From Alloyangia pacifica (GTDB lineage Bacteria; Pseudomonadota; Alphaproteobacteria; Rhodobacterales; Rhodobacteraceae): a stretch of 64,000 nt of DNA. Location: NCBI RefSeq assembly GCF_003111685.1, contig NZ_CP022190.1:1078001-1142000 (forward strand). The letters are read 5' to 3'. The notes beneath the pieces were generated by a model. The model saw only the letters and a program-made list of their open reading frames with translations, did no database searches and had not been told where the DNA came from. Within the stretch, counting starts at the first letter, position 1, and each line of letters begins with the position of its first letter. Below, piece after piece: positions 10,652 through 25,980 of this stretch. The position numbers were made by a program, and so were the translations under genes.

Positions 10652-10664
10652 GAAAATGAATTTC
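10652..10664. promoter_or_regulatory. cluster operator candidate O1
   Basis: GAAAATGAATTTC, a 13-bp near-palindrome 75 bp upstream of the nagA start. Its centre (10658) is 74 bp from that of O2. It belongs to a family of eight sites found in the four divergent promoters of the 6-28 kb cluster; the probable binding protein is the RpiR-type regulator at 18228. Confidence 0.7.
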
Positions 10665-10725
10665 ACCATAGTCGCTGTCTTTCGCATTTTTATATTGACT
10701 GTCACGAAACTGACCCACAGTCTAC

Positions 10726-10738
10726 GAAAATAAATTAC
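10726..10738. promoter_or_regulatory. cluster operator candidate O2
   Basis: GAAAATAAATTAC, embedded in a longer imperfect palindrome TACG...CGTA (10723-10741). It sits 77 bp upstream of the Gfo/Idh/MocA start, nearly symmetric to O1 on the nagA side. The flanking TACG matches the flank of O3 on its opposite strand (CTACGAAAATAA in both). Confidence 0.7.
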
Positions 10739-10814
10739 GTAATCCGTGCGACAGCCCCGCGTCACCCACCGTTGCGGAAGGCACCCTCGCCCGGGAAAAG
10801 AACAGGGATCGAGA

Positions 10815-11975
10815 ATGAAAGTCGGCATCGTCGGGCTTGGGTACCGTCTAGGCTACCTGAGCCAGGTCTTCACGCAAATGCATCCTGATTTCGAGATCGC
10901 TGGCTACGTCGATCCCGCCCCTGCGGGCATGGGTCTGCTGGAGCAGAAGGGCATCTCCGCAGGCACCCAGTACGCGACAGTGCAGGAGCTGCTCAAGGCC
11001 GAAGACCTCGACCTGCTGATGGTGGGTTCGCCCAACTGCATGCACCTCGAGCACATCCGCGCCGGTTTCGAGGCAGGCGTGAAGGTGTTTTCCGAAAAGC
11101 CCGTCGTCACCACCAAGGACGACAGCTTCGAGATGGCGCGGCTGCTCGCGACATACGGCGTCGGGAACCTGCTGGTCGGCCTCGTGCTGCGCTACGCCCC
11201 TCTCTACACCGACCTGCGCGCGGCGCAGGCGCGCGGCGAGCTCGGCGATGTGGTGTCCATCGAAGCCAGCGAGCACATCCCCCCCTACCACGGCGCCTTC
11301 TTCATGCGCGACTGGCGGCGCTACGACCGCTGGGCCGGCGGGTTCATGCTCGAGAAATGCTGCCACGACATCGACCTCTATAATGGAGTCATCGGCGCAC
11401 GCCCCGAGCGGGTGAGCAGTTTCGGCGGCCGCCGCACCTTCGTGCCCGCGAACGATCCGCGCGCCCGGGGCATCAACGATCTCGGGGTCTACAGCCAGAA
11501 GCCTTCGGGCTGGAACGGCACCGACAAGGTCTTCGACAGCGACGCCGAGATCATCGACTACCAGGTGGCCATCGTCGAATACGAGAACGGCGCCGCGCTG
11601 AACTTCCACACCAACCTCAACGTGCCCGACGATTTTCGCCGTTTCGCGGTGATTGGCACCCGCGGCATGGCCGAAGGCGACTTCGTCCGTGGATTTCTCA
11701 ATGTCACCGACAGCCACACCCGCCAGCCACTCGAGCGCAAGACCTACCAGGCCAGCGACCTCTCGCAGCACTACGGCGCGGACGAAGAGATGGCCAAGGG
11801 CGTCATCGCCTCGGTGCTGACCGGTGCGACACAGCCCGTCTCGGTGCTCGACGCGCTCGAAGCGGGGCTGCTCGCCATGGCAATGGACGAGGCCCGCGCC
11901 AAGCGCACGGTCATCGAGATGTCGCGCACCTGGGATCTCTACGACGAGGCCCTCACCGCCAAGGTTCCGGCCTGA
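10815..11975 (+). CDS. Gfo/Idh/MocA family oxidoreductase (cluster copy 1)
   Basis: 386-residue NAD(P)-dependent sugar dehydrogenase family protein. An N-terminal Rossmann motif GIVGLGYRLG is followed by the EKP motif (SEKPVV, about residues 97-102). The C-terminal domain holds LEKCCHDIDLYN, the usual catalytic Asp/His segment. Start at ATG 10815 behind AGGGAT; an upstream in-frame extension to 10746 lacks a fold and would cross O2's border. First gene of a plus-strand operon with the sugar ABC transporter; its stop and the first permease start share one base (TGATG). Members of this family oxidise C3 or other hydroxyls of sugars or glycosides; coupling to import suggests it acts first on the imported compound. 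Confidence 0.9.
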   Translation: MKVGIVGLGYRLGYLSQVFTQMHPDFEIAGYVDPAPAGMGLLEQKGISAGTQYATVQELLKAEDLDLLMVGSPNCMHLEHIRAGFEAGVKVFSEKPVVTTKDDSFEMARLLATYGVGNLLVGLVLRYAPLYTDLRAAQARGELGDVVSIEASEHIPPYHGAFFMRDWRRYDRWAGGFMLEKCCHDIDLYNGVIGARPERVSSFGGRRTFVPANDPRARGINDLGVYSQKPSGWNGTDKVFDSDAEIIDYQVAIVEYENGAALNFHTNLNVPDDFRRFAVIGTRGMAEGDFVRGFLNVTDSHTRQPLERKTYQASDLSQHYGADEEMAKGVIASVLTGATQPVSVLDALEAGLLAMAMDEARAKRTVIEMSRTWDLYDEALTAKVPA

Positions 11976-12859
11976 TGAGCGCACAGAAGTCCGCCGTCAT
12001 CTTTGCCTGGATCTTGCTGGTCCCCGCTCTGGCCTATGTGTCCGCCATTGTCGTCTACCCGCTGCTGCAGACCGTGAACCTGTCGTTCACCGACGCCTCG
12101 CTGCGCCGCACCACGAATTACATTGGCTGGGAGAACTATGCGAAGATCTTCGACGCCGAGTTCGCCACGATCATCGGCCGGACCTTCCTTTGGACCTTCC
12201 TTTCGGTCTCGATCAAGATGATCATCGGCACCGGCGGGGCGATGCTGCTCAATGCCGCGCTGCCCGGCCGCGCGCTCTTCCGCATCCTGACCATGCCGCC
12301 CTGGATCGTGCCGATGGCCATCGGCATCTTCATGTGGGGCTGGATGTACAACGGCCAGTTCGGCATGATCTCGGGCCTGCTGCAGCGCTTTGGGCTGGTC
12401 GACGGGCCGGTCGCCTTCCTCGCCTACGGCCACACTGCGTTCTGGGCGACGATCATCACCGACGTGTGGATCGGTGTGCCGATGGTGACCATGTACATGC
12501 TCGCCGCCGTGCAATCGGTGCCACAGGACCTGCACGAGGCCGCCTGGACCGATGGCGCGAGCCGTCTCTACCGGATGCGCAGGATCACCCTGCCGATGAT
12601 CTTCCCGGCGGCGATCACCATGTCGATGATCTCGCTAATCTCGACCTTCAACTCGTTCGATCCGATCTGGATCCTGACCCAGGGCGGCCCCTCGGGCTCG
12701 ACCACCACGATGATCATCGACACCTATTCGACCGCGCTCGGCTCCAAGAAGTTCGGCGAGGGTGCGGCGAGAGCGGTGGTGATCTGCCTGTTCCTGTCGG
12801 CCTTTGCCCTGCTCTACTTCCGCGCCGTCACCAAGCTGTCGAGGAGGATGACCACATGA
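11975..12859 (+). CDS. sugar ABC transporter permease 1 (MalF/UgpA type)
   Basis: Inner-membrane permease of 294 residues with six hydrophobic segments. The EAA cytoplasmic loop reads DLHEAAWTDGASRLYRMRRITLP (split here: HEAAWTDGAS, then RRITLP), about residues 187-208, and contacts the ATPase. The start overlaps the preceding stop by one base. Pairs with the next permease (binding-protein-dependent CUT1-type system) for uptake of a mono- or oligosaccharide. Confidence 0.92.
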   Translation: MSAQKSAVIFAWILLVPALAYVSAIVVYPLLQTVNLSFTDASLRRTTNYIGWENYAKIFDAEFATIIGRTFLWTFLSVSIKMIIGTGGAMLLNAALPGRALFRILTMPPWIVPMAIGIFMWGWMYNGQFGMISGLLQRFGLVDGPVAFLAYGHTAFWATIITDVWIGVPMVTMYMLAAVQSVPQDLHEAAWTDGASRLYRMRRITLPMIFPAAITMSMISLISTFNSFDPIWILTQGGPSGSTTTMIIDTYSTALGSKKFGEGAARAVVICLFLSAFALLYFRAVTKLSRRMTT

Positions 12860-13716
12860 TGAAGAAAAACGCCATGATCGACCGCTACCGCTGGTGGGAA
12901 GTGGTCCTGATGTACTGCGGCATCTTCATGTTCCTCTTCTTCGTGCTGGCGCCCTTCATCGAGGGCTTCCTGGTCTCGCTGAAGCCGCTGGGCCTGCTTT
13001 TCTCGACGCCCTACAAGTTCCTGCCAGAGAACGGCTCATTCAAGGCCTACTTCACCATGTGGGAGAGCGTGCCCGAGTTCGGCCGCTACATCTTCAACTC
13101 CTTCTTCATCTCGACTGTGATCACCGTGGTGGTGCTGCTGCTGGTGGTGCCCGCGTCTTATGCCTTTGCCCGGATCAGCTTTCGCGGCTCGGGCACGCTG
13201 CTCGGCGCCTTTCTGGCGGTGAACATGTTCTCGGGCGCGGTGCTGCTCATCCCGCTGTTCCGGTTGATGCGCGCCTACGGCATGCTCAACACCTACTGGG
13301 CGATGATCGTGCCCGGCGTGGCCTTCCTAATCCCGACGGCGATCTGGCTGCTCTCGACCTACATGCGCCGCATCCCGCGCGAGCTGGACGAGGCCGCCTA
13401 TGTCGATGGTGCCAGCCATTTCTACATCCTGCGCCGGGTGATCCTGCCGCTGGCGATGCCGGGCATCACCGTTGTCGCCATCACCACCTTTATCGGTGCC
13501 TACGCTCAGCAGTTCATCTTCGCGCTGACCTTCAACTCCAAGACGGAGTTCATGCCGCTGCCCATCGGCCTTTATGCCTACTTCGGTCGCCAGGAGGTGA
13601 TCTGGAACGAGCTTATGGCCGCGAGCTTCGTCGGCATCGCCCCGGCGATGATCCTGATCTTCGCGCTGCAACGCTACCTCGTCGCCGGCCTCACCGCCGG
13701 GGCGGTGAAGCAGTAG
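12856..13716 (+). CDS. sugar ABC transporter permease 2 (MalG/UgpE type)
   Basis: 286 residues with six membrane segments and the EAA loop ELDEAAYVDGASHFYIL (about 179-195). The start overlaps the stop of permease 1 by four bases and has AGGAGG upstream; two ATGs in tandem (12856 and 12859) are both possible. The reading frame is also open far upstream, inside permease 1, but that part is an out-of-frame shadow. Partner of permease 1. Confidence 0.92.
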   Translation: MMKKNAMIDRYRWWEVVLMYCGIFMFLFFVLAPFIEGFLVSLKPLGLLFSTPYKFLPENGSFKAYFTMWESVPEFGRYIFNSFFISTVITVVVLLLVVPASYAFARISFRGSGTLLGAFLAVNMFSGAVLLIPLFRLMRAYGMLNTYWAMIVPGVAFLIPTAIWLLSTYMRRIPRELDEAAYVDGASHFYILRRVILPLAMPGITVVAITTFIGAYAQQFIFALTFNSKTEFMPLPIGLYAYFGRQEVIWNELMAASFVGIAPAMILIFALQRYLVAGLTAGAVKQ

Positions 13717-13905
13717 GCCGCGCAAGAGCTGGCGTCCGCGCCGCGCGCGGAGGCCCTCCATGGCCCCCGAGGGAGGGGGCGACCGGCGACTCCCGCGAGA
13801 GGGAGCAGCCGAAGACCGCCCCGGGACAGGGGAGCCAGAAAGGCCCGCCGCACAAGCGGCAAGAAACGGCCCCGCCCGAAAGGGCACCAACAGGAGAGAA
13901 CAGGA

Positions 13906-15114
13906 ATGACCAAGACCCTTCTTCGCACCGGCGCCGCGCTCGTCGCGCTGACCGCCGCGATGCCCGCCATGGCCGAAGAGATCACCATGATTGTCTGCGG
14001 CGACACGATGAACCCGGTCCACCAGAAGTATATCGACCAGTGGGAAGCCCAGAACGAAGGCTGGACCGTCGCGCCAGAAGTCGTCGGCTGGGGCCAATGC
14101 CAGGACAAGGTGACCACGCTCGCCGTCGCAGGCACCCCCGTGGGTCTCGCCTACGTCGGCTCGCGGACGCTGAAGGAATTTGCCGAGTTCGGCCTGATCG
14201 AGCCGGTGCCGATGAGCGACGAGGAAAAGGCCTCCTACTACCCCAACGTGGTCGACACCGTGACCTATCAGGGTGAGCAGTGGGGCGTTCCGGTCGCCTT
14301 CTCGACCAAGGCCTTCTACTGGAACAAGGATCTCTTCAAGGAAGCCGGCCTCGATCCGGAAAGCCCGCCCAAGACATGGGCCGAGGTCATCGACGCCGCC
14401 AAGGCCGTCACCGAGAACACCGACAGCGCCGGCTTCGGCCTCGTCGCCAAGACTTTCGACAATACCATGCACCAGTTCCTGCATTGGGTGTATACCAACA
14501 ACGGCCAGGTCGTGGACGCCGAGGGCAACATCGTGCTGGACTCGCCCCAGAACCTCGAGGCGTTGGAAGCCTACAAGGCGCTGGTGCCCTACTCGGAGGA
14601 AGGCCCGACCGCCTACGAGCAGAACGAGGTCCGCGCGATCTTCCTCGACAGCGGGGTGGCGATGATGCACGCCTCGATCGCCGCTGTCTCGCGCCTAGAG
14701 GACACCGACATCAACTGGGGCGTGGCCAACCTGCCGCTCGGTCCGGAGGCCCAAGGCCCGGGCACGCTGCTGATCACCGACAGCCTCGCCGTTTTCTCGG
14801 GCTCCGGCTACGAGGAAAAGGCCGTCGAGCTGGCGAAATTCCTCACCGCGCCGGAAGCGCAGGAAGAATATGACCTCGCCGAAGGCCTGACGCCGCTGCG
14901 CCCCTCCGCCAACATCGACGCGCTGGTCGCGGAGACCCCCTACTGGGCGCCCTATATCGACGGCATCGAGTTCGGTGGTCCGGAGCCGCTCTTCACCGAC
15001 TACCGTGGCTTCCAGAACGTCATGATCGAGATGGTGCAATCCGTGGTCACCGGCGCGGCCGAGCCCGCCGACGCGCTGGCCAAGGCCGACGCCGCGCTCA
15101 AAGAGCTCGAGTGA
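13906..15114 (+). CDS. sugar ABC transporter substrate-binding protein
   Basis: Periplasmic binding protein of 402 residues with a Sec signal peptide ending AMPAMA and the mature protein starting EEITM. Typical cluster-B (MalE-like) features are GVPVAFSTKAFYWNKDLF and a C-terminal helix of repeated Asp/Ala-Lys heptads. Two cysteines near the mature N-terminus (ICG.. and GQCQ) could pair. It lies 189 bp after permease 2, with its own AGGAGAG ribosome site, so a separate promoter or RNA processing in that gap is possible. The stem-loop at 15153-15176 follows it. Confidence 0.93.
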   Translation: MTKTLLRTGAALVALTAAMPAMAEEITMIVCGDTMNPVHQKYIDQWEAQNEGWTVAPEVVGWGQCQDKVTTLAVAGTPVGLAYVGSRTLKEFAEFGLIEPVPMSDEEKASYYPNVVDTVTYQGEQWGVPVAFSTKAFYWNKDLFKEAGLDPESPPKTWAEVIDAAKAVTENTDSAGFGLVAKTFDNTMHQFLHWVYTNNGQVVDAEGNIVLDSPQNLEALEAYKALVPYSEEGPTAYEQNEVRAIFLDSGVAMMHASIAAVSRLEDTDINWGVANLPLGPEAQGPGTLLITDSLAVFSGSGYEEKAVELAKFLTAPEAQEEYDLAEGLTPLRPSANIDALVAETPYWAPYIDGIEFGGPEPLFTDYRGFQNVMIEMVQSVVTGAAEPADALAKADAALKELE

Positions 15115-15152
15115 CCCAGCGCTGATTGATCCGAGCCCGCATGGGTTCTCAT

Positions 15153-15176
15153 GGTCCGGACCTTCGGGTCCGGACC
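15153..15176 (+). promoter_or_regulatory. intra-operon stem-loop with UUCG tetraloop
   Basis: Perfect 10-bp stem GGTCCGGACC / GGTCCGGACC closed by TTCG as C(UUCG)G, one of the most stable RNA tetraloops. It lies 38 bp after the binding-protein stop and 24 bp before the ATPase start. No T-run follows, so it is more likely an mRNA 3'-end stabiliser or partial attenuator than a full terminator. Such a device raises binding-protein mRNA over ATPase mRNA. Confidence 0.75.
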
Positions 15177-15200
15177 GCTTGAATAGGAAAGGACTTTCCC

Positions 15201-16325
15201 TTGGGACAGCTTGCCCTGAGCGGTGTGAAGAAACGCTTCAACAAATTTGAGGTCATCCATGGGATCGACCTCGACATCCGGGATGGCGAATTCGTCGTCT
15301 TCGTCGGGCCTTCGGGGTGCGGCAAGTCCACGCTGCTGCGGATGATCTGCGGGCTGGAAGAGATCACCGAGGGCGCATGCACCATCGACGGAATCCGCGT
15401 CAACGACCTGCCGCCGGTCAAGCGCGGCATCGCCATGGTGTTCCAATCCTACGCGCTCTATCCGCATATGTCGGTCTTCGAGAACATTGCCTTTCCGCTG
15501 CGCGTCGAGAAGCTCCCTGAGGCCGAGATCAAAGAGCGTGTGATGCGCGCGGCGCGGGTGCTGCAACTGGAGAACCGGCTGCAGCAGAAGCCGGGCAACC
15601 TCTCTGGCGGACAGCGCCAGCGGGTCGCCATCGGCCGGGCCATCGTGCGTCAGCCATCTATCTTCTTGTTTGACGAGCCGCTGTCGAACCTCGACGCCGC
15701 GCTGCGTGCCGAGATGCGCATCGAGCTGACCGCGCTGCACAAGAAACTCAAGGCGACGATGATCTACGTCACACACGACCAGGTCGAGGCGATGACCATG
15801 GCCGACCGCATCGTGGTGCTCGACGGCGGCAGCATCAGCCAGGTCGGCGCGCCGCTCGAGCTTTACCACAAGCCCGACAACCTGTTCGTCGCGGGCTTCA
15901 TCGGCAACCCGCGGATGAACTTCCTCCCCGGCACCTGCACAAAGGTCGGTCCCGAGGGCGCCACGGTGAGCCTGAACACTGGCGGCACGATCACCGTGCC
16001 GGTCGAGGCGCCCCGCAGTCTCGAAGGCCACCAGATCACGTTGGGCATCCGCCCCGAGCACCTGAGCCAGGCCGGCGGCGATCTGTCGATCGACGTGATC
16101 CCGAATGTCGTCGAACGGCTGGGGGTGAACACCGTGGCCTATGCCGAACTCGAGGGCGTGGGCACGATCTCGGCCTTGCTGCCCGGATCCTCTCCGGTGG
16201 CCCCGGCGACACCCGCGACGCTCTCCTTCCTCGCCGCCGACTGCCACCTCTTTGACGCCGACGGCATGGCCCTCGCCCGCAAGGTCGACAGCTCGATGCC
16301 GATCCCGGCAGCGGCCACCGCCTGA
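15201..16325 (+). CDS. sugar ABC transporter ATP-binding protein (UgpC/MalK/MsmK type)
   Basis: 374-residue ATPase. Walker A is GPSGCGKST (38-46), the Q-loop is [12 protein letters not shown], the signature is [10 protein letters not shown], Walker B is [12 protein letters not shown], and the H-loop is VTHD. A C-terminal regulatory (TOBE/MalK-like) domain begins after residue 235. The start is a rare TTG at 15201, with GGAAAGGA upstream; no ATG or GTG fits the family N-terminus. A weak start after a hairpin suggests its level is held below that of the binding protein. Last gene of the ABC operon. Confidence 0.93.
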
Positions 16326-16372
16326 GGCACCTTGGCGGGCTCACTCACGGGCTGGTCGCAGATTGAAACAAC

Positions 16373-16404
16373 AATGCCCCCGCAGGGATCGCGGGGGCAT
16401 TTTC
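16373..16404 (+). terminator. rho-independent terminator of the sugar ABC operon
   Basis: 11-bp stem AATGCCCCCGC / GCGGGGGCATT with a 7-base loop followed by TTTC. It lies 47 bp after the ATPase stop and, read from the other strand, close to the end of the converging PLP-enzyme gene, so it may serve both directions. Confidence 0.88.
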
Positions 16405-16455: not shown

Positions 16456-17553
16456 TCACCAGACGGTGCCGCGCGCCGCCACCTTAAGCACCCGGGTGAC
16501 CTTCTCGCCGTCGTGGAAGACCATCCGGTCGAAGAGATTGGTGACCACGCAGGTGTGGTTCGGGATCACCCGCAGCACCTCGCCCACCTTGGGCCCCTCG
16601 CCCGCGATTCCCGACAGGTCCACCACGCCGTGCTCTTCCGACAGACCGGTGATCCGCGCACCGGGGTATTCGACGATCAGCCCGTGATCCTGAAAGCCGA
16701 GCAAATCAGAGGTCAGCGCCTTGGAGCCCGCGTCGATCACCGCCCGATCCGGCGTCGGGCGCGAAACCACGGTGACGAGAATATGCATGGCGCACTCATC
16801 GAGGCTGGCATGCCCCGCGCGCACCATGGCACGGTCGTTGTAGACATAGGTCCCCGCGCGGTGCTCGGTCGCCGAAGGGATGTCCCCTGCCGCAAAGAAA
16901 TCCGGAGTGCCGCCGACCGTCACCGCCGGACAGCCGAGCCCAGCATCGTCCAGAAGCGCCTTGGCCGAGGATACGAAACTCTCGACCGCCGCGGCCCCGC
17001 CGGGCGCCGGGTAGGTCATCAGACCGCCGAAGCGGAGCCCGCCGGCCGCCGCGATCTCGGCAGCAAGCGCCGCCGCGGCCGACGGCGTCTGCACGCCGCA
17101 GCGCCCGCCGCCGGTGTCGCATTCGACCAGCACTGTCAGCGGCGCATCGGCGCAGAAGGTGGCGGCGAGGCCGGCCACGACCTCAAAACTGTCCGCCGTA
17201 ACCGCAAGACGCGCCACGCGCGCCTTCAGCGCCTTGAGCCGCGCCAGCCTTGCCGCGCCGAGGATGTTGTAGGTGATCAGGATGTCGTCGAAGCCGGCCT
17301 CGGCGAAGACCTCTGCCTCGGTCACCTTCTGGCAGTTGATCCCCACTGCCCCTGCCTCGAGCTGCGCGCGCGCGACCTCGGGCAGCTTGTGCGTCTTGAT
17401 ATGCGGGCGGAAAGCCCGGCCGAGCCTGTCCATATACGCCTGGGCGCGGGCGATGTTGTCCGCCATGCGCGCCTCGTCGATGACTGGCAGCGGGGTCAGC
17501 AGTTCGGAAAGCGGCGTGCCGGGCGCCGGCCAGATATTCGCGAGACCCGGCAT
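16456..17553 (-). CDS. fold-III PLP enzyme, D-threonine aldolase / D-serine dehydratase-like
   Basis: 365 residues. The alanine-racemase-like N-terminal barrel carries RPHIKTHK with the PLP lysine (Lys53). The C-terminal domain has PNHTC near residue 335, the His/Cys metal pair of D-threonine aldolases and eukaryote-type D-serine dehydratases. The family cleaves or dehydrates D-3-hydroxy amino acids. Start at ATG 17553, overlapping the stop of the NTF2-like gene by one base (TGATG). If it is a D-serine dehydratase, the product 2-aminoacrylate would be handled by the RidA of this cluster; that is inference. The choice between aldolase and dehydratase cannot be made here. Confidence 0.85.
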   Translation of the reverse strand: MPGLANIWPAPGTPLSELLTPLPVIDEARMADNIARAQAYMDRLGRAFRPHIKTHKLPEVARAQLEAGAVGINCQKVTEAEVFAEAGFDDILITYNILGAARLARLKALKARVARLAVTADSFEVVAGLAATFCADAPLTVLVECDTGGGRCGVQTPSAAAALAAEIAAAGGLRFGGLMTYPAPGGAAAVESFVSSAKALLDDAGLGCPAVTVGGTPDFFAAGDIPSATEHRAGTYVYNDRAMVRAGHASLDECAMHILVTVVSRPTPDRAVIDAGSKALTSDLLGFQDHGLIVEYPGARITGLSEEHGVVDLSGIAGEGPKVGEVLRVIPNHTCVVTNLFDRMVFHDGEKVTRVLKVAARGTVW

Positions 17554-18038
17554 CAGTGCCCCGCGTAAGGCAGGTAGCCCACGAATCCGGCGATTTTCCA
17601 GCCGTCCGCGGTCTCGCGACAGGTGTACAGCGTCTGCCACAGCAGCCGATCCTCGCCCCCATCGGCACGCTTGAGGATCCCGTCGAACTTCTTGCGCACC
17701 AGCGCCACAGCGCCGTCAACCTCGATCTCCTCGAGCTTGGTGGCGCGGAAGATGCCGGCGCGGGGATCCTCGGCGTAGTCGGTCCTCTGCCCCTCCGCGG
17801 CCTGCCGCAGCCATTCGTCGCGATAAGCCTCGAGCGAGGCGAAGGAGAGCGTCCACGTCTGCGGATCGGGATTGAAATTTCCGTTCATCCCGATGAAGTT
17901 CTCGGAGAGGAAATCGCCCTCGATCATCCCCCAGTCGGCACCGATGAAGGCATCGATGTCGCGCGGCACCAGCATCTCCCAGATGGCGTGGCGGGCGCTG
18001 TCCTCGGGCGCAAAGGGGTTCTGCATCGGATCACGCAT
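17553..18038 (-). CDS. NTF2/SnoaL-like protein of unknown function
   Basis: About 161 residues with the alternating helix and long-strand pattern and C-terminal Trp-Lys-Ile segment (ADGWKIAGFVGYLP) of NTF2-like proteins. I place the start at ATG 18038 (MRDPMQN), which has GAGG eight bases upstream; an ATG at 18062 is only three bases from operator O3 and has no ribosome site. Translationally coupled to the PLP enzyme. Such proteins can be small isomerases, dehydratases or binding proteins; no catalytic set is clear. Confidence 0.65.
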   Translation of the reverse strand: MRDPMQNPFAPEDSARHAIWEMLVPRDIDAFIGADWGMIEGDFLSENFIGMNGNFNPDPQTWTLSFASLEAYRDEWLRQAAEGQRTDYAEDPRAGIFRATKLEEIEVDGAVALVRKKFDGILKRADGGEDRLLWQTLYTCRETADGWKIAGFVGYLPYAGH

Positions 18039-18065
18039 CTCGGCGGCCTCATTCCGTGTCATGTT

Positions 18066-18078
18066 GCAAATTATTTTC
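18066..18078. promoter_or_regulatory. cluster operator candidate O3
   Basis: On the minus strand GAAAATAATTTGC, preceded by CTAC as in O2. It lies 28 bp upstream of the NTF2-like start, probably over the promoter. Centre 18072, exactly 74 bp from O4. Confidence 0.65.
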
Positions 18079-18139
18079 GTAGATTACCGAAAACACTGGC
18101 CACTTTTCCGCCCGCATGCGAAAGTGTCAACGAAAATAA

Positions 18140-18152
18140 GAAAATGATTTTC
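18140..18152. promoter_or_regulatory. cluster operator candidate O4
   Basis: GAAAATGATTTTC, a perfect 6+1+6 palindrome and the best copy in the set. A further half-site (GAAAATAA, 18132-18139) abuts it. It lies 76 bp upstream of the RpiR-type regulator gene, which suggests autoregulation. Confidence 0.75.
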
Positions 18153-18227: not shown

Positions 18228-19091
18228 ATGGATATCTTCGCAACGCTGATGCAGGAAGGGCTGAAGCTCTCACAGTCCGAGCAGCGCATCGCCGACCTTG
18301 TGCTGAAGGACATCGACTTCGCCACCAATGCCTCGATCACCGACCTCGCCGCAAGGGCCGAAGTGTCGCCCCCCACCGTGACCCGCTTCTGCCGCCGGCT
18401 CGGCTGCAACTCCTTCTCGGATTTCAAGGTCACCCTGGCCAAGTCCTCCTACGTCGGGCTGCGCTACCTGCGCCCGGAGGCAAAGTCCTCGACCCCTTCG
18501 GAGGTGGCCGAAGACATTGTGACCAAGGCCCAGAAAGCGCTCTTCATGATGCATGACGCGCTCGACATGTCAGCCATGGAACGCGCCGCGGAAACCCTCT
18601 CACGGGCCGAGATGATCTATGCCTTCGGCTCGGGCGGCAACTCGTCGATGATCGTCAACGAGATGCAGAACCGCCTGTTCCGCCTCGGTGCGCGGATCAC
18701 CACTTCCACCGACCACGGCATGCAGATGATGCAGGCCTCGGCGGTGACCCAGCGGGACGTGGTGTTCGGCTCGTCCTTCTCGGGGCGCAACGCCGAGCTG
18801 GTGCGCGCCTTCGGTCTTGCCCGCGATCAGGGAGCGACGACCATCGCGCTCACCCAGTCCGGCTCTCCGGTGTCCGAGGCCGCCGACGTGGTGCTGTCGG
18901 TGGTCCTTCCCGAGGGCGAGAACATCTTCCGCCCCACCTCGACCCGCTACGCCATGCTGGCCGTCGTCGACATCCTTGCGAACCTCGTCGCCTACACCAA
19001 CCGGACCGAGAGCGCCGCCACCCTGCGCCGGATCAAGGAGAGCCTGATCCGCCACCGCGACGGCGACGACCGACAGCTTCTGGGCGACTGA
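18228..19091 (+). CDS. MurR/RpiR family transcriptional regulator
   Basis: 287 residues. An N-terminal HTH_6 domain (about 1-77) contains the family signature SITDLAARAEVSPPTVTRFC followed by RRLGCNSFSDFK. A SIS sugar-phosphate-binding domain (about 110-250) includes AFGSGGNSS and SFSGRN. Members usually repress sugar-phosphate catabolic genes and are released by a phosphosugar. Start ATG 18228 behind GAGGGGG. It is the only regulator in the 22-kb cluster and the natural candidate for binding the eight palindromes, including O4 before its own gene. A phosphorylated amino sugar would be the expected ligand, which is inference. Confidence 0.92.
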   Translation: MDIFATLMQEGLKLSQSEQRIADLVLKDIDFATNASITDLAARAEVSPPTVTRFCRRLGCNSFSDFKVTLAKSSYVGLRYLRPEAKSSTPSEVAEDIVTKAQKALFMMHDALDMSAMERAAETLSRAEMIYAFGSGGNSSMIVNEMQNRLFRLGARITTSTDHGMQMMQASAVTQRDVVFGSSFSGRNAELVRAFGLARDQGATTIALTQSGSPVSEAADVVLSVVLPEGENIFRPTSTRYAMLAVVDILANLVAYTNRTESAATLRRIKESLIRHRDGDDRQLLGD

Positions 19092-19158: not shown

Positions 19159-20601
19159 ATGACCCCGAAGAAACGGATCGCCGTCGGCGGCATCCATACC
19201 GAATGCTCGACCTACAACCCGGTGCTCATCCGTGCCGAGGATTTCACGGTGATGCGCGGCGCGGAGCTGACCGCCTCGGCCTATTTCGCCTTCCTGCCGC
19301 AGGACGACATCGAGATCCTGCCGCTGCTGCACGCCCGCGCCGTCCCCGGCGGGCCGGTGGACCGTCCGGCTTACGAGGGCTTCAAGTCCGACCTGCTGTC
19401 CCGGCTCGAGGCGGCGCTGCCGCTCGACGGCGTCTACCTCGCCATGCATGGCGCGATGCACGTGGACGGCATGTGGGACGCCGAGGGCGACTGGATCAAG
19501 GCGGTGCGCGATCTTGTCGGCCCCGAGGTGCCGATCTCGGTCAGCTACGACCTGCACGGCAACGTCAGCCAGCGGATCATCGACCAGATCGACATGTTCG
19601 CCGCCTATCGTACTGCGCCGCATATCGACGTGACCGAGACCATGCAGCGCGCCTGGGAGATGCTGCTGCGCTGCCTGCGCAGCGGCGCGCGCCCTTTTGT
19701 CACCTGGGCGAAGATCCCGGTGCTGATGCCGGGCGAACGCTCTTCGACCGAGGATGAGCCCGCCAAGTCGCTCTATGCTGCCCTGCCTGCCCATGACCGG
19801 CGCCCCGGCATCTGGTCCGCCGACCAGATGGTCGGCTACGTCTGGGCCGACGAGCCGCGCGGCACCGCCGCCGCCATCGTCACCGCCACCGATGCCGCCG
19901 AGGCCGAGGCCGTCGCCAGCGAATTGGCCCAGGCCTACTGGGATGCGCGCGGCGCCTTTGCCTTCGGCCCGGTCACCGGCCCGCTGAGCGAAATGCTGGA
20001 TATCGCCGCCAAGGCGGGCACCGCGCCGGTGATCCTCGCCGAGAGCGGCGACAACCCCACCGGCGGCGGGGTCGGTGACAACGGGTTGGTGCTTAAGGCG
20101 CTGATTGAACGGGACTGGCAGGACGCGCTGATCGCCGGGATCACCGATCCCAAGGCGGTCGCGGCGTGCTTCGCCGCCGGGGTCGGCGCCGAACTGGAGC
20201 TGACCGTCGGCGCGAAGCTCGACCCGGCAGGCAGCTCGGCCACCGCGCGGTTCACCGTGGTGACCCTCGTGGAGGGCACCGGCGGCGCCTTTGCCCAAGC
20301 AGTGGTGAAGACCGGGGGTATCACCCTCGTGCTCGCCGCGCGGCGCCGGCCCTTCCACAACTTCGAGGACTTCGAACTGCTCGGCCTCGACCCGCGCAAG
20401 GTCAGCCTGCTGGTTGTAAAGTCGGGATATCTCTCGCCCGACCTTGCGCCGATTGCCAGTCCGAACCTCATGGCGTTGACCGATGGCGTGGTGAACCAGG
20501 ACATCCCGCGCCTCGAGAGCCACCACCGCGCACCGGGCCTCTACCCCTGGGACACAAAGGCCACCTTCACGCCCGCTCCCACCCGCTCGGCCCGCGCCTG
20601 A
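19159..20601 (+). CDS. M81 family metallopeptidase homologue (MlrC type), copy 2
   Basis: 480 residues with the M81 features: HTECSTYNP at the N-terminus, AMHGAMH, the zinc pattern SYDLHGN (Asp, His) then APHIDVTET (His), and SGDNPTGGGVGDNG. It is clearly divergent from the copy at 6934-8439, so the two are not a recent duplication and probably act on different bonds. Follows the regulator by 67 bp and leads into the MFS and CutC genes. Substrate unknown. Confidence 0.88.
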   Translation: MTPKKRIAVGGIHTECSTYNPVLIRAEDFTVMRGAELTASAYFAFLPQDDIEILPLLHARAVPGGPVDRPAYEGFKSDLLSRLEAALPLDGVYLAMHGAMHVDGMWDAEGDWIKAVRDLVGPEVPISVSYDLHGNVSQRIIDQIDMFAAYRTAPHIDVTETMQRAWEMLLRCLRSGARPFVTWAKIPVLMPGERSSTEDEPAKSLYAALPAHDRRPGIWSADQMVGYVWADEPRGTAAAIVTATDAAEAEAVASELAQAYWDARGAFAFGPVTGPLSEMLDIAAKAGTAPVILAESGDNPTGGGVGDNGLVLKALIERDWQDALIAGITDPKAVAACFAAGVGAELELTVGAKLDPAGSSATARFTVVTLVEGTGGAFAQAVVKTGGITLVLAARRRPFHNFEDFELLGLDPRKVSLLVVKSGYLSPDLAPIASPNLMALTDGVVNQDIPRLESHHRAPGLYPWDTKATFTPAPTRSARA

Positions 20602-20695
20602 GCTGACAGCACCTCAGGCCCCTCGGCGCATGGAGCCGCGCCGAGGAGCCGTCCGTTCCGCCTCGGCCCGCGGGCCGCATCCCTCCGAGAGCCCG

Positions 20696-21925
20696 ATGTT
20701 CGACATCCTCAAATCGCTCCGCGCCTCGCAGGGCCTGCGGGCCTGCGCAACAGCGGTCTTCTTTTGCGGCATCGCCGCGGCCTCGACCGCGCCCTACAAA
20801 TCGGTGGTGGCGATCCGCGAGCTCGGCCTCTCGGACGGCGCCTTCTCGGCGCTCACCCTGACGGCGGCGATCATCAACGTGCTGGCCTCGATCTACCTCG
20901 GCATGCTGGCGGACCGCGATACGGGCTACCGCAAGTTGCTCATGTGGCTCGCCGCGATCGGCATCGCCGGCTATGCGGCGATCTTCCTCTTCCCGCAGCC
21001 CGCAGTCTTCGTGCCCGCGCTGCTGCTGCCGGTGTCGATCTTCAGCGGACTGACGCCCATGCTCTTCGCAGCCGGGCGGGTGTTTTCCGACGGGTTGCCG
21101 CGCGCCGACCGCGCCGCCATGTCCTCGGTCCTGCGCGGCATGGTCTCGGCGGCCTGGATCCTCGTGCCCGGGATGCTGGGTTTTGCACTCGCCGGGCGCG
21201 GCTCGATGCTGCCTGCCTTCCTCGTCGCGGCGCTGGCCGCCACGGCTGTGCTGATCGTGCTTAAACTCGCCATGCCCCGCGGCGGCAGCGGAGATCCGGC
21301 AAAGCGGCCGCCGAAGGTCTCGCTGCTCGGCGCCTTCGGGCTGCTGGCGCGCCCCGCGGTGACCCTGCGCGTGGTCGGAACCGCCGCGATCACCTCGGCG
21401 ATCCACGTGCATGCCGCCGTCATGCCGCTGATCATGACCGGCCGCGCCGGGGGCACCAACGGCGATGTCGGCATCACCGTCGGCATCGTCGCGGGCATGG
21501 AACTGCTCTTCCTGCTCGGCTGGGCGCGGGTCACACGCCACATCTCGACGGTCACCACGCTGGCCATCGCCATGGCGCTCTATACCGGCTATCTGGGCAC
21601 CATCGCTCTGGCAACCTCGCCCGGCATGATCATCGCCGGCGCCTTTCTCGGAGGCACCGCGGCCTCGGCGCTGATCACCCTGCCGCTCGGCTACCTGCAG
21701 GAGCTGATCGCGGATCGTCCCGGTCTTTCGGCCTCGCTGATCTCGCTGAACCTCTTTCTTGCGGGCGCCATCGCCGCCGGGCTTTTCGGCTTCGGCACCA
21801 CCATCGGCAGCTATTCCACGGTCGCCTTCATGGGCATCGCCGCCGGGCTTGCCGGGGCGCTCGGCCTCGTGGCACTGGAACGCTGGCATCCGCTCACACC
21901 CGCCGCCGCAGAGGAGAGGCCATGA
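20696..21925 (+). CDS. MFS transporter
   Basis: 409 residues with twelve hydrophobic segments and the MFS loop 2-3 motif seen as LGMLADRDTGYRK. It starts at ATG 20696, 94 bp after the M81 stop, and its stop overlaps the CutC start by four bases (ATGA). General look is of sugar-type MFS proteins. Either uptake of a second substrate or efflux of a by-product would fit; the sequence does not decide. Confidence 0.85.
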   Translation: MFDILKSLRASQGLRACATAVFFCGIAAASTAPYKSVVAIRELGLSDGAFSALTLTAAIINVLASIYLGMLADRDTGYRKLLMWLAAIGIAGYAAIFLFPQPAVFVPALLLPVSIFSGLTPMLFAAGRVFSDGLPRADRAAMSSVLRGMVSAAWILVPGMLGFALAGRGSMLPAFLVAALAATAVLIVLKLAMPRGGSGDPAKRPPKVSLLGAFGLLARPAVTLRVVGTAAITSAIHVHAAVMPLIMTGRAGGTNGDVGITVGIVAGMELLFLLGWARVTRHISTVTTLAIAMALYTGYLGTIALATSPGMIIAGAFLGGTAASALITLPLGYLQELIADRPGLSASLISLNLFLAGAIAAGLFGFGTTIGSYSTVAFMGIAAGLAGALGLVALERWHPLTPAAAEERP

Positions 21926-22662
21926 CCCGCACCCTGGAAATTTGTGTCGACAGCCCCGCTGGCCTTGCCGCCGCCGTCGAGGGCGGTGCGGACCGCATAG
22001 AGCTCTGCTCGGCGCTGGCGCTTGGTGGGCTGACGCCGACGCAAGGGCTGATACACCTTGCCGCCCGTGCGCCGATCCCGGTTGTGGCGATGATCCGCCC
22101 CCGTGCCGGAGGCTTCGACTGGAGCGAGGATGAGGTCCTCGCGATGGAAGTCGAGATCGCCGCCGTCGCGCGCGCGCGCCTCGCGGGCGTGGTGATCGGC
22201 GCGACGCGCTCCGGCGCAGGCACCGTGACGCTCGACCTTCCCGTCATGCAGCGACTGGTTGCGGCGGCACAGGGGCTCGATCTCACCCTGCACCGCTGCA
22301 TCGACCTCATCGAAGACGCGTTCGAAGCCATCGACCAGTCGGCAGAGCTCGGCATCTCGCGCATTCTAAGCTCGGGAGGCGCGCTGTCGGCCGTTGAAGG
22401 CATCACGCGCCTGCAGGAAATGTCCGCGCACGCCGCGGGCCAGCTGAGCATCATGCCCGGCGCCGGGATCTCTGCCGCCACCCTCCCCGGCCTGCTCGCG
22501 GCTCTCGATCCGAGCGACGTGCATGCGTCCGCCTCGCAGCCCGATCCCGCAAGCGGCGCCATTGCCCGCTTCGGCTTCCAGACCGAGGGGGCACGGCGCA
22601 CCGATGCCGCCACCGTGGCCGGGCTAAAACGCCTGCTCGAGGACCGCAGCGGGCGGCCCTAG
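21922..22662 (+). CDS. cutC: CutC family TIM-barrel protein
   Basis: 246 residues with the CutC signatures ADRIELCSALALGGLTPT and MIRPRAGGF, and a DLTLHRCIDL strand. Originally linked to copper tolerance in E. coli, but the biochemical role of the family is unsettled and it has a metal-site TIM barrel. Coupled to the MFS gene by a four-base overlap with GAGGAGAGG as ribosome site. Its place in an amino-sugar operon argues for an enzymatic (sugar or glycoside) role rather than copper handling. A 12-bp palindrome GGCCCTAGGGCC covers the stop codon. Confidence 0.85.
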   Translation: MTRTLEICVDSPAGLAAAVEGGADRIELCSALALGGLTPTQGLIHLAARAPIPVVAMIRPRAGGFDWSEDEVLAMEVEIAAVARARLAGVVIGATRSGAGTVTLDLPVMQRLVAAAQGLDLTLHRCIDLIEDAFEAIDQSAELGISRILSSGGALSAVEGITRLQEMSAHAAGQLSIMPGAGISAATLPGLLAALDPSDVHASASQPDPASGAIARFGFQTEGARRTDAATVAGLKRLLEDRSGRP

Positions 22663-22693
22663 GGCCACCCTCTCCCCGTGACCGGCAGTCGCC

Positions 22694-23455
22694 TCACTCG
22701 GGGTGCACATCCAGATAGTAGTCGAAGAGCTCCAGCTCGCTGGCCGCAGCCCGGTCGAGGACCAGCGTCGCATGGCGGTGCATCTGCAAGACACTTCCCG
22801 GCCAGCGCGCCGAGACCGGCCCCTCGACGACCTGCGCCACCGCCCGTGCCTTGGCCGTGCCGGTCGCGACCAGCAACACCTCGCGCGCCCGCATGATCGT
22901 GCCGATGCCCATGGTGATCGCCAGTCGCGGCGGTTCCTCGCCCTCGGGGAAGTAACGGCTGTTGGCCTCGCGAGTCGAACGCTCCAGCGTCTTCAGCCGG
23001 GTGATCGAGCTGAGGCTCGAGGTCGGCTCGTTGAAGCCGATGTGGCCGTTCAGCCCCAGCCCCAGCAACTGCAGGTCGATGTCGCCCGCCGCGACGATGG
23101 CCGCCTCGTAGCGCACCGCCTCGGCCTCCGCATCCGCGGCCTCGCCCATGGGCAGATGCGCCGCGTCTGGCACGATGTCGATCTGGTCGAAGAGCTTCTC
23201 GGCCATGTAGCGGCGGTAGGAACAGGGATGATCGCCCGAAAGCCCGACGTATTCATCGAGATTGAAGCTCTGCGCTCCGGCAAAGGAGGCGCGTCCGACG
23301 CGGTGCAGCGCAATCAGCTTCTCGTAAACCGCCTCCATCGTGCCGCCCGTGGCGAGGCCCAGCACCGAGGCGGGCTTGGCGGTGAGTTGCGCGGCAATGA
23401 TCTCGGCGGCGCGCACCGCTGCCGCCGCGGCATCCCCAAGGATCAGGATCTTCAC
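22694..23455 (-). CDS. nagB: glucosamine-6-phosphate deaminase
   Basis: Converts GlcN-6-P to fructose-6-P and ammonia. 253 residues with ATGGTM (phosphate loop), FNLDEYVGL with catalytic Asp, HPCSYRRYM, and GLNGHIGFNEP with catalytic His. Start is GTG 23455, six bases after the RidA stop; the pair is read from the O5/O6 promoter. Completes the GlcNAc route with the ROK kinase and NagA, which are on a separate transcript 13 kb away but under the same putative operator family. Confidence 0.93.
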   Translation of the reverse strand: MKILILGDAAAAAVRAAEIIAAQLTAKPASVLGLATGGTMEAVYEKLIALHRVGRASFAGAQSFNLDEYVGLSGDHPCSYRRYMAEKLFDQIDIVPDAAHLPMGEAADAEAEAVRYEAAIVAAGDIDLQLLGLGLNGHIGFNEPTSSLSSITRLKTLERSTREANSRYFPEGEEPPRLAITMGIGTIMRAREVLLVATGTAKARAVAQVVEGPVSARWPGSVLQMHRHATLVLDRAAASELELFDYYLDVHPE

Positions 23456-23461
23456 CGCGGC

Positions 23462-23860
23462 TCAGGCCTTCAGAGGGTTGTAGGCGATCACGTCCATCTC
23501 GACCTTGGCATCGACCATCAGCGGCGATTCCACCGTCGAGCGGGCTGGCGGGTGAATGCTGAAGTGCTTCTTGAAGACCGCGTTGAAGGACGAGAAGTCC
23601 CGCGCGTCATCAAGCCAGACGCCGACTTTCACCACGTGCTCAAGCCCGCAGCCCGCCAGTGCCAAGACCTCCTTGAGGTTCTCGATCACCACTTCGGTCT
23701 GAACGGCGATATTGCCCGCGACCACCTCGCCGTCGCGCGTCGGCACCTGACCCGAGACAAAGACGAAGTCCCCGGCACGCACGGCCTTGGAAAAGGGGCG
23801 CTCCTGGCCGCCGGCCTGGGTGTCGGCGGCGTCCAGGCGCTGAATACCGGGAAGGGTCAT
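23462..23860 (-). CDS. RidA family protein (2-iminopropanoate/enamine deaminase)
   Basis: 132 residues with the RidA core: FVSGQVPTRDGE, then QTEVVIENLKEVL, and PARSTVE carrying the catalytic Arg. Hydrolyses reactive enamines or imines such as 2-aminoacrylate. I start at ATG 23860, with GGAG eight bases upstream; an in-frame GTG at 23869 is possible. Operator O5 ends only a few bases before the ribosome site. Co-transcribed with nagB. It may quench an enamine made by the cluster's PLP enzyme or by elimination from an amino sugar. Confidence 0.9.
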   Translation of the reverse strand: MTLPGIQRLDAADTQAGGQERPFSKAVRAGDFVFVSGQVPTRDGEVVAGNIAVQTEVVIENLKEVLALAGCGLEHVVKVGVWLDDARDFSSFNAVFKKHFSIHPPARSTVESPLMVDAKVEMDVIAYNPLKA

Positions 23861-23874
23861 GACGGGCACTCCAC

Positions 23875-23887
23875 GAAATTGATTTTC
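23875..23887. promoter_or_regulatory. cluster operator candidate O5
   Basis: GAAATTGATTTTC, a 6+1+6 palindrome with one mismatched pair. It is 15 bp upstream of the RidA start, placed to block both promoter clearance and ribosome access. Centre 23881. Confidence 0.72.
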
Positions 23888-23948
23888 TTTTTTCTGGCGC
23901 GAACATTGAAACTAGGCAATAGATTCCTCGCGGTTTGTGCGAATTTAT

Positions 23949-23960
23949 GAAAGAAATTTC
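23949..23960. promoter_or_regulatory. cluster operator candidate O6
   Basis: GAAAGAAATTTC, a one-base-shorter variant with GAAA/TTTC arms. Centre about 73-74 bp from O5 and 65 bp upstream of the TIM-barrel gene. Weakest member of the set, accepted mainly for its spacing. Confidence 0.5.
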
Positions 23961-24024
23961 CAAACATCGCAGGAAGCCATACGCCGGCTTGTCCGGGCAC
24001 CCGATACAAGGACCCAGCCTTTCC

Positions 24025-24855
24025 ATGACCGCTACGTCCACCGTCCCGCTCCCCTTTGCCCGCATCAGCCTCAAGTGGAGTATGATCGAAGCCCCTGAGC
24101 TGAGCATCGCCGAGACCTTCGCCATGCTCGCCGAACTGGGCTACGACGGGGTCGAAATCGACGCGCCGACGGACATGCCGCTGGACGAGCTGCGCGGCGC
24201 CAGCGCCGCCAGCGGCGTCGCCCTGCCCGGGGTGATCAACGCGCGCCATTGGAGCCAGCCGCTCTCCTCGCCCGACGCCGAGACCCGCGCCGCGGGTGTG
24301 CAGGGAATGATCGCGGCGCTTGAGACCGCGCGCACCATCGGCGCGGAAACCGTGCTGCTTGTGCCCGGTGCCGTCGGGCCAGAGGTCAGCTATGCCACCG
24401 CTTGGGACCGCGCGATCGCGGGACTCGAACAGCTCCTGCCCCATGCCGAGCGCACCGGCGTGCGCATCGCCATCGAGAACGTCTGGAACAACTTCCTGCT
24501 CAGCCCGCTCGAGGCCGCGGCCTTCCTCGATCGCTTCGATCACCCGTTGCTGGGCTGGTACCTCGACGTCGGCAACCTCCTGCGCAACGGCTATCCGACC
24601 GATTGGATCGAGGTGCTGGGCGCGCGCATCACCCGGGTCGATCTCAAGGAATTCAGCCGCGCCAAGATGGAAGCCGAGGGGCCTTGGAAGGGTTTCGACG
24701 TCGAGCTTGGCAAGGGCGATTGCGACTGGGCCGCGGTGAACGCGGCGCTGCGCGGGGTCGGCTACAGCGGCTGGGCCTCGGTCGAGGTGCCGGGCGGCGG
24801 GCGCGCTCGGCTGGCAGAGATCCGGGAACGGGTCGAGGCGCTGCGCGTGCTCTGA
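24025..24855 (+). CDS. sugar phosphate isomerase/epimerase-like TIM-barrel protein (copy 1)
   Basis: 276 residues, AP-endonuclease-2/xylose-isomerase-like barrel. Metal ligands expected for the family can be seen: AIENVWN (Glu), YLDVGN (Asp), DLKEF, and SVEVPGG (Glu). Start at ATG 24025, after AAGGA; the frame is open to 23935 but that part crosses O6 and has no fold. Family members isomerise or epimerise ketoses, and some act as lyases on 3-keto-glycosides. Divergent from ridA-nagB. Confidence 0.85.
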   Translation: MTATSTVPLPFARISLKWSMIEAPELSIAETFAMLAELGYDGVEIDAPTDMPLDELRGASAASGVALPGVINARHWSQPLSSPDAETRAAGVQGMIAALETARTIGAETVLLVPGAVGPEVSYATAWDRAIAGLEQLLPHAERTGVRIAIENVWNNFLLSPLEAAAFLDRFDHPLLGWYLDVGNLLRNGYPTDWIEVLGARITRVDLKEFSRAKMEAEGPWKGFDVELGKGDCDWAAVNAALRGVGYSGWASVEVPGGGRARLAEIRERVEALRVL

Positions 24856-24873
24856 GGGCGCGATCAAGACAAA

Positions 24874-24907
24874 GGGGCGCGCCGGACTCACAGGCGCGCC
24901 CCCTTCT
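24874..24907. terminator. terminator between the two converging TIM-barrel genes
   Basis: 10-bp stem GGGGCGCGCC / GGCGCGCCCC with a 9-base loop, followed by CTTCTC on the plus strand; an AAA run on the left gives a short T-run when read on the minus strand. Probably works both ways. Confidence 0.75.
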
Positions 24908-24920
24908 CATGGGATCAGTG

Positions 24921-25826
24921 TCACGCGGCCAGTTCGGCCGTCACCTCGTCGAAGATGCGGATCACGTTGGCAAGCCCGGTGTCGCAGCCCATGAGCGTCG
25001 GCTCGTTTCCCTCGAACTCCAGCGATACGTAGCCATCATAGCCCGAGCTCAGGATGGCCCGGACGATCTCCCGCGTTTCCAGGTCGCCAAAGCCAAAGAC
25101 CGTGCCGACGATGTGCCGCCCGCCCAGCGTCTCGAGCCAGCCCGGCCCCGGGTAACGTTTGCGCAAGAGGAAGTCCTTCACGTGCACGAAACTCGCGATG
25201 TCGAGGCAGTTGCGCGTCGCCATCAGCGGATCCTCATCGACACAGAGGAAGTTGCCCACGTCCAGCGTCATGCGGAAGTTCGGGCTGTCCACCGCCTGCA
25301 CGAGCCGGCGGCAGCGCTCGCTCGAATTCATCAGAAAGCCGTGGTTCTCGATGCTGGTCACCACGCCACGGCTCGCCGCATGCTCTGCCACCTCTAGGCA
25401 AGCCTCGACGATAACCGGGAAGAGCGCTTCGACCTGCACATAGCTCTCGGGCCGCAGCGCCCAAGGGACCACATCGGTGCGCAGAAACCCCACGCCGATA
25501 TCTGCGCAAAGATCGACGTAGCGCTTGGCCCTGTCGATCTGCGCCCGGCGCGTGGCCGCGTCCTCATCAATAAAGCTCGCCGGGATGCAGAGACCCGACA
25601 GGGCAACGCCTGAATTTTCGGCAGCCGCCTCGAGCCGCCGCCGGGTTTCTGCGTCCTCGTAAAGCTCATATTCCATCATGGTCTCGGGGCTCTGGCCGAT
25701 GGTCATCGTGGCCAGTTCCATATGCGTTCCCCCCGAGGCGGCGATTTGCTCGAACACCCCCTCAAGGCTGATCTCCTGGCGCCGCAGCAGCGGCTGGAAA
25801 CTGTAGGAGCTGATGCCGAATTGCAT
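24921..25826 (-). CDS. sugar phosphate isomerase/epimerase-like TIM-barrel protein (copy 2)
   Basis: 301 residues of the xylose-isomerase-like family. Expected metal ligands appear in SIENHG (Glu), TLDVGNF (Asp), FVHVKDF (His/Asp) and SLEFEG (Glu). Start set at ATG 25826 (MQFGISSYSF), which has AAGGA six bases upstream; a TTG two codons earlier is less likely. It shares little with copy 1 beyond the fold, so the two probably do successive steps (for example elimination and isomerisation). Divergent from the GMC gene across O7/O8. Confidence 0.85.
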   Translation of the reverse strand: MQFGISSYSFQPLLRRQEISLEGVFEQIAASGGTHMELATMTIGQSPETMMEYELYEDAETRRRLEAAAENSGVALSGLCIPASFIDEDAATRRAQIDRAKRYVDLCADIGVGFLRTDVVPWALRPESYVQVEALFPVIVEACLEVAEHAASRGVVTSIENHGFLMNSSERCRRLVQAVDSPNFRMTLDVGNFLCVDEDPLMATRNCLDIASFVHVKDFLLRKRYPGPGWLETLGGRHIVGTVFGFGDLETREIVRAILSSGYDGYVSLEFEGNEPTLMGCDTGLANVIRIFDEVTAELAA

Positions 25827-25904
25827 GGCCAATCCTTATTTTCACTTGGGAACGGAGGCGCCACGCTGCGTCGGTCAGCCGGCCTTTCGGGGACGCTAGC
25901 ATCC

Positions 25905-25917
25905 GAAAATATTTTAC
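25905..25917. promoter_or_regulatory. cluster operator candidate O7
   Basis: GAAAATATTTTAC, 79 bp upstream of the TIM-barrel copy 2 start. Centre 25911, 63 bp (six helical turns) from O8. Confidence 0.6.
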
Positions 25918-25967
25918 ACAACCTTATTGACTTTGCGACCCCGCCGAGCGTTCATGCGGTCAAAAAT

Positions 25968-25980
25968 GAAAAGAATTTAC
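25968..25980. promoter_or_regulatory. cluster operator candidate O8
   Basis: GAAAAGAATTTAC, 42 bp upstream of the GMC oxidoreductase start. Ends in TTTAC like O7 and TTAC like O2. Confidence 0.6.

Follow-up and report, generated by a model that had tools for sequence, protein, structure and literature searches.

The window (the whole stretch of DNA analysed here: 64,000 nucleotides (nt) of Alloyangia pacifica contig NZ_CP022190.1, forward-strand positions 1,078,001 to 1,142,000) holds an amino-sugar gene cluster with a regulator of the RpiR family, and each of four gaps between genes of this cluster contains a pair of short palindromes. An earlier note on this DNA had given coordinates for eight such palindromes, and all of them were found again when re-read in the window, as four pairs with one pair per gap. 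We conclude that the eight palindromes are real, non-random and conserved, and that the existence of one RpiR regulon across the four promoters is well supported. The genes and candidate elements, in window coordinates and from left to right, are:

9438..10604 (predicted start), minus strand: nagA, N-acetylglucosamine-6-phosphate deacetylase (TIGR00221, 273.6 bits, cut-off 225.65)
10652..10664, no strand: gap 1 left operator, nagA side, GAAAATGAATTTC
10694..10722, plus strand: gap 1 promoter-like element, TTGACT, 17 base pairs (bp), CAGTCT, ending 2-3 nt before the right operator
10726..10738, no strand: gap 1 right operator, gfo1 side, GAAAATAAATTAC
10815..16325, plus strand: gfo1 (GFO/IDH/MocA), two ATP-binding cassette (ABC) permeases, a solute-binding protein and an ATPase
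16456..18062, minus strand: a D-threonine-aldolase/D-serine-dehydratase-like enzyme and a protein of 169 amino acids without a Pfam match
18066..18078, no strand: gap 2 left operator, GCAAATTATTTTC
18125..18130 (approximate), minus strand: gap 2 TTGACA, -35-like, 9 nt from the right operator and 52 nt from the left
18140..18152, no strand: gap 2 right operator, upstream of rpiR, GAAAATGATTTTC, a perfect palindrome
18228..19091, plus strand: RpiR-family regulator, HexR/RccR-like, with HTH_6 and SIS domains, the proposed binder
19159..22662, plus strand: an MlrC-like (M81) protein, an MFS transporter and a CutC-family protein
22694..23860, minus strand: nagB (glucosamine-6-phosphate deaminase; TIGR00502, 275.9 bits, cut-off 236.9) and a ridA-like gene
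23875..23887, no strand: gap 3 left operator, ridA side, GAAATTGATTTTC
23949..23961, no strand: gap 3 right operator, epi1 side, degraded, GAAAGAAATTTCC
24025..25832: epi1 (plus strand) and epi2 (minus strand), two xylose-isomerase-like TIM-barrel genes
25905..25917, no strand: gap 4 left operator, GAAAATATTTTAC
25927..25932, plus strand: gap 4 TTGACT, -35-like, 9 nt from the left operator and 41 nt from the right
25968..25980, no strand: gap 4 right operator, GMC gene side, GAAAAGAATTTAC, with its partner 63 bp away
26022..28642, plus strand: GMC oxidoreductase (pyranose-oxidase-like; 26022-27527) and gfo2 (GFO/IDH/MocA)

The operators were scored against the symmetric consensus GAAAATNATTTTC, which is also what a matrix built from 110 unique sites gives, with a flanking Y...R. 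Mismatches to this consensus number one at 10652, two at 10726, one at 18066, none at 18140, one at 23875, three at 23949 and two each at 25905 and 25968; the best copy does therefore stand ahead of rpiR, as had been said. The asymmetric 13-mer first proposed for these sites has 15 matches in the window at up to three mismatches against 3.77 expected. It nevertheless fits worse than GAAAATNATTTTC, recovering five of the eight sites at that threshold and lying four to five mismatches from 23949, 25905 and 25968. Taken alone, 23949 is unconvincing; decay of a former site is the better reading, because the equivalent place is GAAATTGATTTTC in the related loci L004 and L005 and GAAAGAAATTTTC in L006. 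The nagA frame is formally open across site 10652 (GTG at 10718), which is probably intergenic all the same, since the NagA profile match would put the start of the protein near 10604. Measured start to start, the pairs span 74, 74, 74 and 63 bp, in line with the earlier values of 74, 74, 73-74 and 63 bp.

Scanning of the whole genome (5,165,968 bases) gave 59 places with at most two mismatches to GAAAATNATTTTC, as against 20 for the reversed control pattern, and seven of the 59 are in the cluster. Among the 50 of these 59 places that were listed, the sole perfect match and three of the five one-mismatch places fall inside the cluster. Examination of 40 of the 52 places outside it showed one with any partner (at most three mismatches, 20-150 bp away), at 30 bp, and none with a partner at 60-76 bp. 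Equal frequency of the motif at unrelated promoters had been named beforehand as evidence against a regulon; in this genome the motif is instead rarer outside the cluster. For the relatives, we took 52 stretches around sites with at most one mismatch from 12 genomes, a sample rather than every such site. Three of these stretches proved to be gap-1 pairs, and 11 of the other 49 have some partner (at most three mismatches, 15-200 bp).

The RpiR protein, used as a query in a collection of one genome per species, retrieved 32 loci (L004-L035) from Alloyangia, Salipiger, Pseudooceanicola and others, and from Rhizobium, Neorhizobium, Martelella, Cucumibacter and others; we take the first three genera to belong to the Rhodobacterales and the latter four to the Rhizobiales. 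Much of the gene cluster is retained in all of these loci other than L034 and L035. Every gap for which sequence was available contained a pair (gap 1, 21 of 21; gap 2, 30 of 30, L029 having no upstream DNA and hence no gap-2 count; gap 3, 10 of 10; gap 4, 6 of 6), giving 67 pairs in 30 clusters among the 31 examined. Their spacing is narrow: 61 of the 67 lie at 72-75 bp (eight at 72, 23 at 73, 28 at 74 and two at 75), and the remaining six, every one of them in gap 4, are spaced by 63 bp, the value found in all six clusters with gap 4 in hand. At most two mismatches are present at both sites in 29 of the 67 pairs. When pairs at all distances of 13-200 bp were counted in 31 sequences (the window stretch and L004-L033), the 27 with at most two mismatches per site were all at 63 or 72-75 bp, as were 64 of the 73 with at most three, the other nine lying at 39-192 bp. 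With 29 permuted half-sites and up to three mismatches, the mean was 1.9 pairs and the maximum eight in any 4-bp bin.

The RpiR proteins of L034 and L035 are 41 and 38 percent identical to that of the cluster and have a changed recognition helix. No operator pair was found in these two loci, where single weak sites occur, and a search there for other paired palindromes returned G+C-rich ones only. Even sampling of the class (385 genomes) gave no RpiR orthologue at 1e-70 besides that of the genome itself. The reading as a single RpiR regulon is supported by orthologous clusters that keep the pairs together with the same rpiR and by the scarcity of the motif elsewhere in the genome. Placement of the pairs in divergent gaps, also pointed out earlier, holds for all four gaps of the window but is not required, as the L032 locus has a pair at 75 bp between the plus-strand genes cutC and gfo1.

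No gap-4 orthologue with the 73-74 bp spacing, which might have shown the ancestral state of the 63-bp gap, turned up in the sampled family and genus genomes. The GMC gene was detected in two genomes out of 394 from the family and in five out of 20 from the genus, and both counts include the A. pacifica genome itself. Gap 4 of L037-L041 is identical to that of L033, L011, L005, L006 and L004 and adds nothing new; L007-L010 were considered as holders of a 73-74 bp gap 4 and rejected, the pairs there being those of gap 3. The GMC gene (26022-27527) is a rarely seen addition, one that brought its own 63-bp operator pair into the cluster.

The proposed binder belongs to the RpiR family by its N-terminal HTH_6 domain (68.6 bits, cut-off 28.3) and C-terminal SIS domain (57.8 bits, cut-off 25). 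The nearest profile is that of HexR (NCBIfam PRK11302), but the scores of 185.8/185.4 bits fall below the cut-off of 296 and the protein is not a HexR by this measure. Its nearest solved-structure chains are 8ju9 and 8k3b, which we take to be Pseudomonas aeruginosa RccR. Eight RccR residues that contact 2-keto-3-deoxy-6-phosphogluconate (KDPG) were compared: five are kept in the cluster RpiR (S139, R152, S183, S185 and K270) and three are changed (H148N, H164G and S188N), with R277 outside the aligned stretch (contacts from PMC10810197). Given this mixture of retained and altered contacts, the effector may reasonably be guessed to be a phosphorylated sugar or sugar acid different from KDPG. 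HexR itself is a KDPG-responsive RpiR regulator in gammaproteobacteria (PMC5507952). The operators match neither TGTAGT/ACTACA nor TTGT-N7-8-ACAA, and so are not of the RccR or HexR type; what the gaps do have, as loop-forming repressors with paired operators do, is two like operators at in-phase spacing around a promoter, the latter recognised in three of them (gaps 1, 2 and 4).

One promoter, not two, was recognised between the sites in each of these three gaps, and none in gap 3. TTGAC starts 31-32 nt ahead of the downstream operator in gap 1 (21 of 21), 41 nt ahead in gap 4 (6 of 6) and, on the minus strand, 52 nt ahead in gap 2 (29 of 30); extra copies of TTGAC stand at other distances in some relatives, eight in gap 1 and 14 in gap 2. 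The -10-like hexamer of gap 1 is CAGTCT in 20 of 21 clusters, the window included, and CTAAAT in L032. As it follows this hexamer by 2-3 nt, the downstream operator of gap 1 should cover the start site. The near operator is 8-9 nt away in both gap 2 and gap 4, and the two distances to the far operator differ by 11 bp. Such 10- and 11-bp steps would be expected if operators and promoter shared one helical register.

At 10.5 bp per turn, 72-75 bp corresponds to 6.86-7.14 turns and 63 bp to 6.00 turns. The proposal that both sites of a pair face the same side of the helix is therefore supported, though not proved, by spacings that, in all 67 pairs, fall at either 63 or 72-75 bp. Comparison of the window spacers with those of L013, L020 and L032 gave identities of 0.55-0.67 and lengths differing by 0-2 bp, while 200 shuffles of one spacer gave an identity of 0.59 (standard deviation 0.04, maximum 0.70). 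Across orders, then, spacer likeness is at the shuffled level and length is conserved; this is most simply read as selection acting on distance. The 63-bp class and the promoter distances are what separates 'same face' from 'same length', and with the promoter distances added the case for phase is good but not closed.

Several points weigh against phased pairs held by RpiR. A fixed length could explain the narrow 72-75 bp range as well as a fixed phase does, so that the 63-bp class alone truly tests phase, and an exact one-turn step would be met about 1 in 10 times by chance. The shared promoter register is a post hoc observation, and it does not extend to gap 3, where TTGAC is present in 1 of 10 clusters. 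For 38 of the 67 pairs, one site departs from the consensus at three positions. Close relationship among many of the genomes reduces the 67 pairs, by our estimate, to perhaps a dozen independent cases; co-occurrence of rpiR with the sites is also partly built in, since the loci were retrieved via rpiR. L011 retains its pairs despite a frameshift at about codon 50 of its rpiR as assembled. Finally, two of the 49 non-cluster stretches are partnered at 72-75 bp (L117 at 72 bp, L130 at 74 bp). The genes adjoining them, recO with an MFS gene and a methyltransferase with PNPase, do not suggest regulon membership, and both pairs are probably due to chance. The frameshifted rpiR of L011 (L011:10001-10862, an Alloyangia mangrovi assembly) is either a pseudogene or a sequencing error.

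Conservation of the spacing in two orders suggests that one sugar-sensing RpiR regulator grips both copies simultaneously, and phased bridging by a tetramer would, judged from the sequence, be the most likely mechanism. One RpiR dimer would occupy each 15-bp palindrome (YGAAAATNATTTTCR), and the paired sites, seven turns apart (six before the GMC gene), would lie on one helix face and flank a promoter with its -35 in register. The pair could then be bridged by a tetramer, or by two dimers in contact, to form a small loop or bent complex in which the promoter is shut, and a phosphorylated amino-sugar breakdown product acting at the SIS domains may relieve the repression. Binding by RpiR, tetramer bridging or looping, repression rather than activation, and the effector are all parts that we infer; the whole, with RpiR dimers on phased pairs, bridged, and a shut promoter relieved by effector, is in our view the best explanation, held with somewhat more confidence than doubt. 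A broader proposal is offered tentatively, as one we doubt more than we trust: that a single mechanical module (an operator pair spaced by six or seven turns, -35 in register) underlies the whole regulon, that selection acts on geometry and not on spacer sequence, and that these amino-sugar RpiR regulators work through the tetramer-DNA loop, which would already have existed in the ancestor of the Rhodobacterales and Rhizobiales versions.

Independent RpiR dimers without contact are an unlikely alternative, although the most serious one; the 72-75 bp spacing would then be a legacy of an ancestral promoter, passed on by copying rather than maintained for phase. Such copying is consistent with three of the four gaps sharing about 74 bp, and all six copies of gap 4 come from close relatives. 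It accords poorly with spacers of one gap that diverge to the shuffled level across orders at unchanged length, with a gap 4 that differs by one turn, and with the 27 best-matching pairs, none of which lies at any other distance within 13-200 bp. We consider improbable a compact promoter architecture that sets the spacing, with promoters tightly back to back and each with an operator at its start. The closeness of the gap 1 operator to the -10-like hexamer does tie operators to promoters, but a single promoter-like element per gap was recognised in gaps 1, 2 and 4, its position relative to the operators varies by gap (31-32, 41 and 52 nt), and back-to-back promoters cannot set the 75-bp distance in L032, because cutC and gfo1 are both on the plus strand. 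Very improbable is binding of the palindromes by a protein other than the cluster RpiR, whose own binding is predicted: L013 has a gene for a GntR/UTRA regulator close to gap 1 and the A. pacifica genome has six other places weakly matching the HexR profile (best 5.7e-15), but the gap-2 pair adjoins rpiR, or is one ridA-like gene away, in all 30 clusters with upstream DNA, the published SpNanR site TCTGAAAGTACTTTTAGA is similar in form, and the homologues with a changed recognition helix are without the pair.

Phased bridging by RpiR extends a known idea, with precedents in MurR, RccR at aceE and SpNanR, rather than being a finding of a new kind. RccR at aceE is like the present system in its family and in having two 15-bp palindromes at one promoter, and RccR, as we take chains 8ju9 and 8k3b to be, is the nearest solved-structure relative. 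In Pseudomonas fluorescens the two aceE sites are 68 bp apart, with apparent cooperativity and with hypersensitive bands between the sites that suggest bending (PMC5489143). RccR differs in its motif (TGTAGT/ACTACA) and in that one promoter is concerned, not a whole regulon; the 68 bp may be an edge or a centre distance, and centres 83-84 bp apart would be in phase whereas centres 68 bp apart would not. A scan of 398 genomes for the exact two-site RccR pattern gave no match. RpiR crystal structures are reported to be tetrameric, a MurR tetramer has been proposed to bridge two sites, and looping has been discussed for SpNanR (PMC12713135). MurR of Escherichia coli is an RpiR-family repressor, a tetramer with two adjacent sites over a promoter, but these sites are just 17 bp apart and 47 bp in total, with no one-turn series in what is described (PMC12713135). 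SpNanR, the NanR of Streptococcus pneumoniae, shares the family and has an effector-stabilised tetramer, but is a reported activator with single sites per promoter (PMC12713135). LacI-type loops, in which a tetramer bridges two operators and repression depends on phase over 57.5-155.5 bp, come from an unrelated family, and looping is measured for LacI whereas for the cluster RpiR it is predicted (PMC1762422).

Among other sugar regulators, those named for N-acetylglucosamine genes are NagC, NagQ and NagR, of the ROK, GntR and LacI families (PMC5343134), and OngR of the Pseudoalteromonas ong chitin-oxidation cluster is an RpiR repressor (PMC9537276). The ong cluster resembles that of the window in its RpiR gene, RidA, a relative of D-threonine aldolase and D-serine deaminase, and beta-hexosaminidase, whereas NagA, NagB, the ABC transporter and the GFO/IDH and GMC enzymes set the window cluster apart (PMC9537276). 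The hexosaminidase likeness comes from relatives: a GH20 beta-N-acetylhexosaminidase gene lies directly after rpiR in L009 (10909-12825) and one gene further in L020 (11701-13632), and is not at the corresponding place in the window. Because these GH20 genes follow just after rpiR, sugars containing N-acetylglucosamine are indicated as the substrate. No study of this cluster's regulator was found among the literature matches listed, a search with most subscription journals outside its coverage. Whether an RpiR tetramer bridges two DNA sites in cells has so far been discussed as a possibility (PMC12713135). The many natural versions of one module, one of them a turn shorter, make this question addressable in a single promoter, and a regulon and an operator matrix are now available for this amino-sugar cluster.

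The leftward gene without a Pfam match (17553-18062; 169 amino acids) is conserved beside the gap-2 pair in each of the 30 clusters whose sequence covers that place. Outside the cluster, a one-mismatch palindrome, TAAAATAATTTTC, lies by a TTGACGG element in three rhizobial genomes (L139:3039-3123, L140:3173 and L141:3158). L139 alone shows a partner for it, 72 bp away, with recO and an MFS gene on either side; these sites may belong to another regulator.

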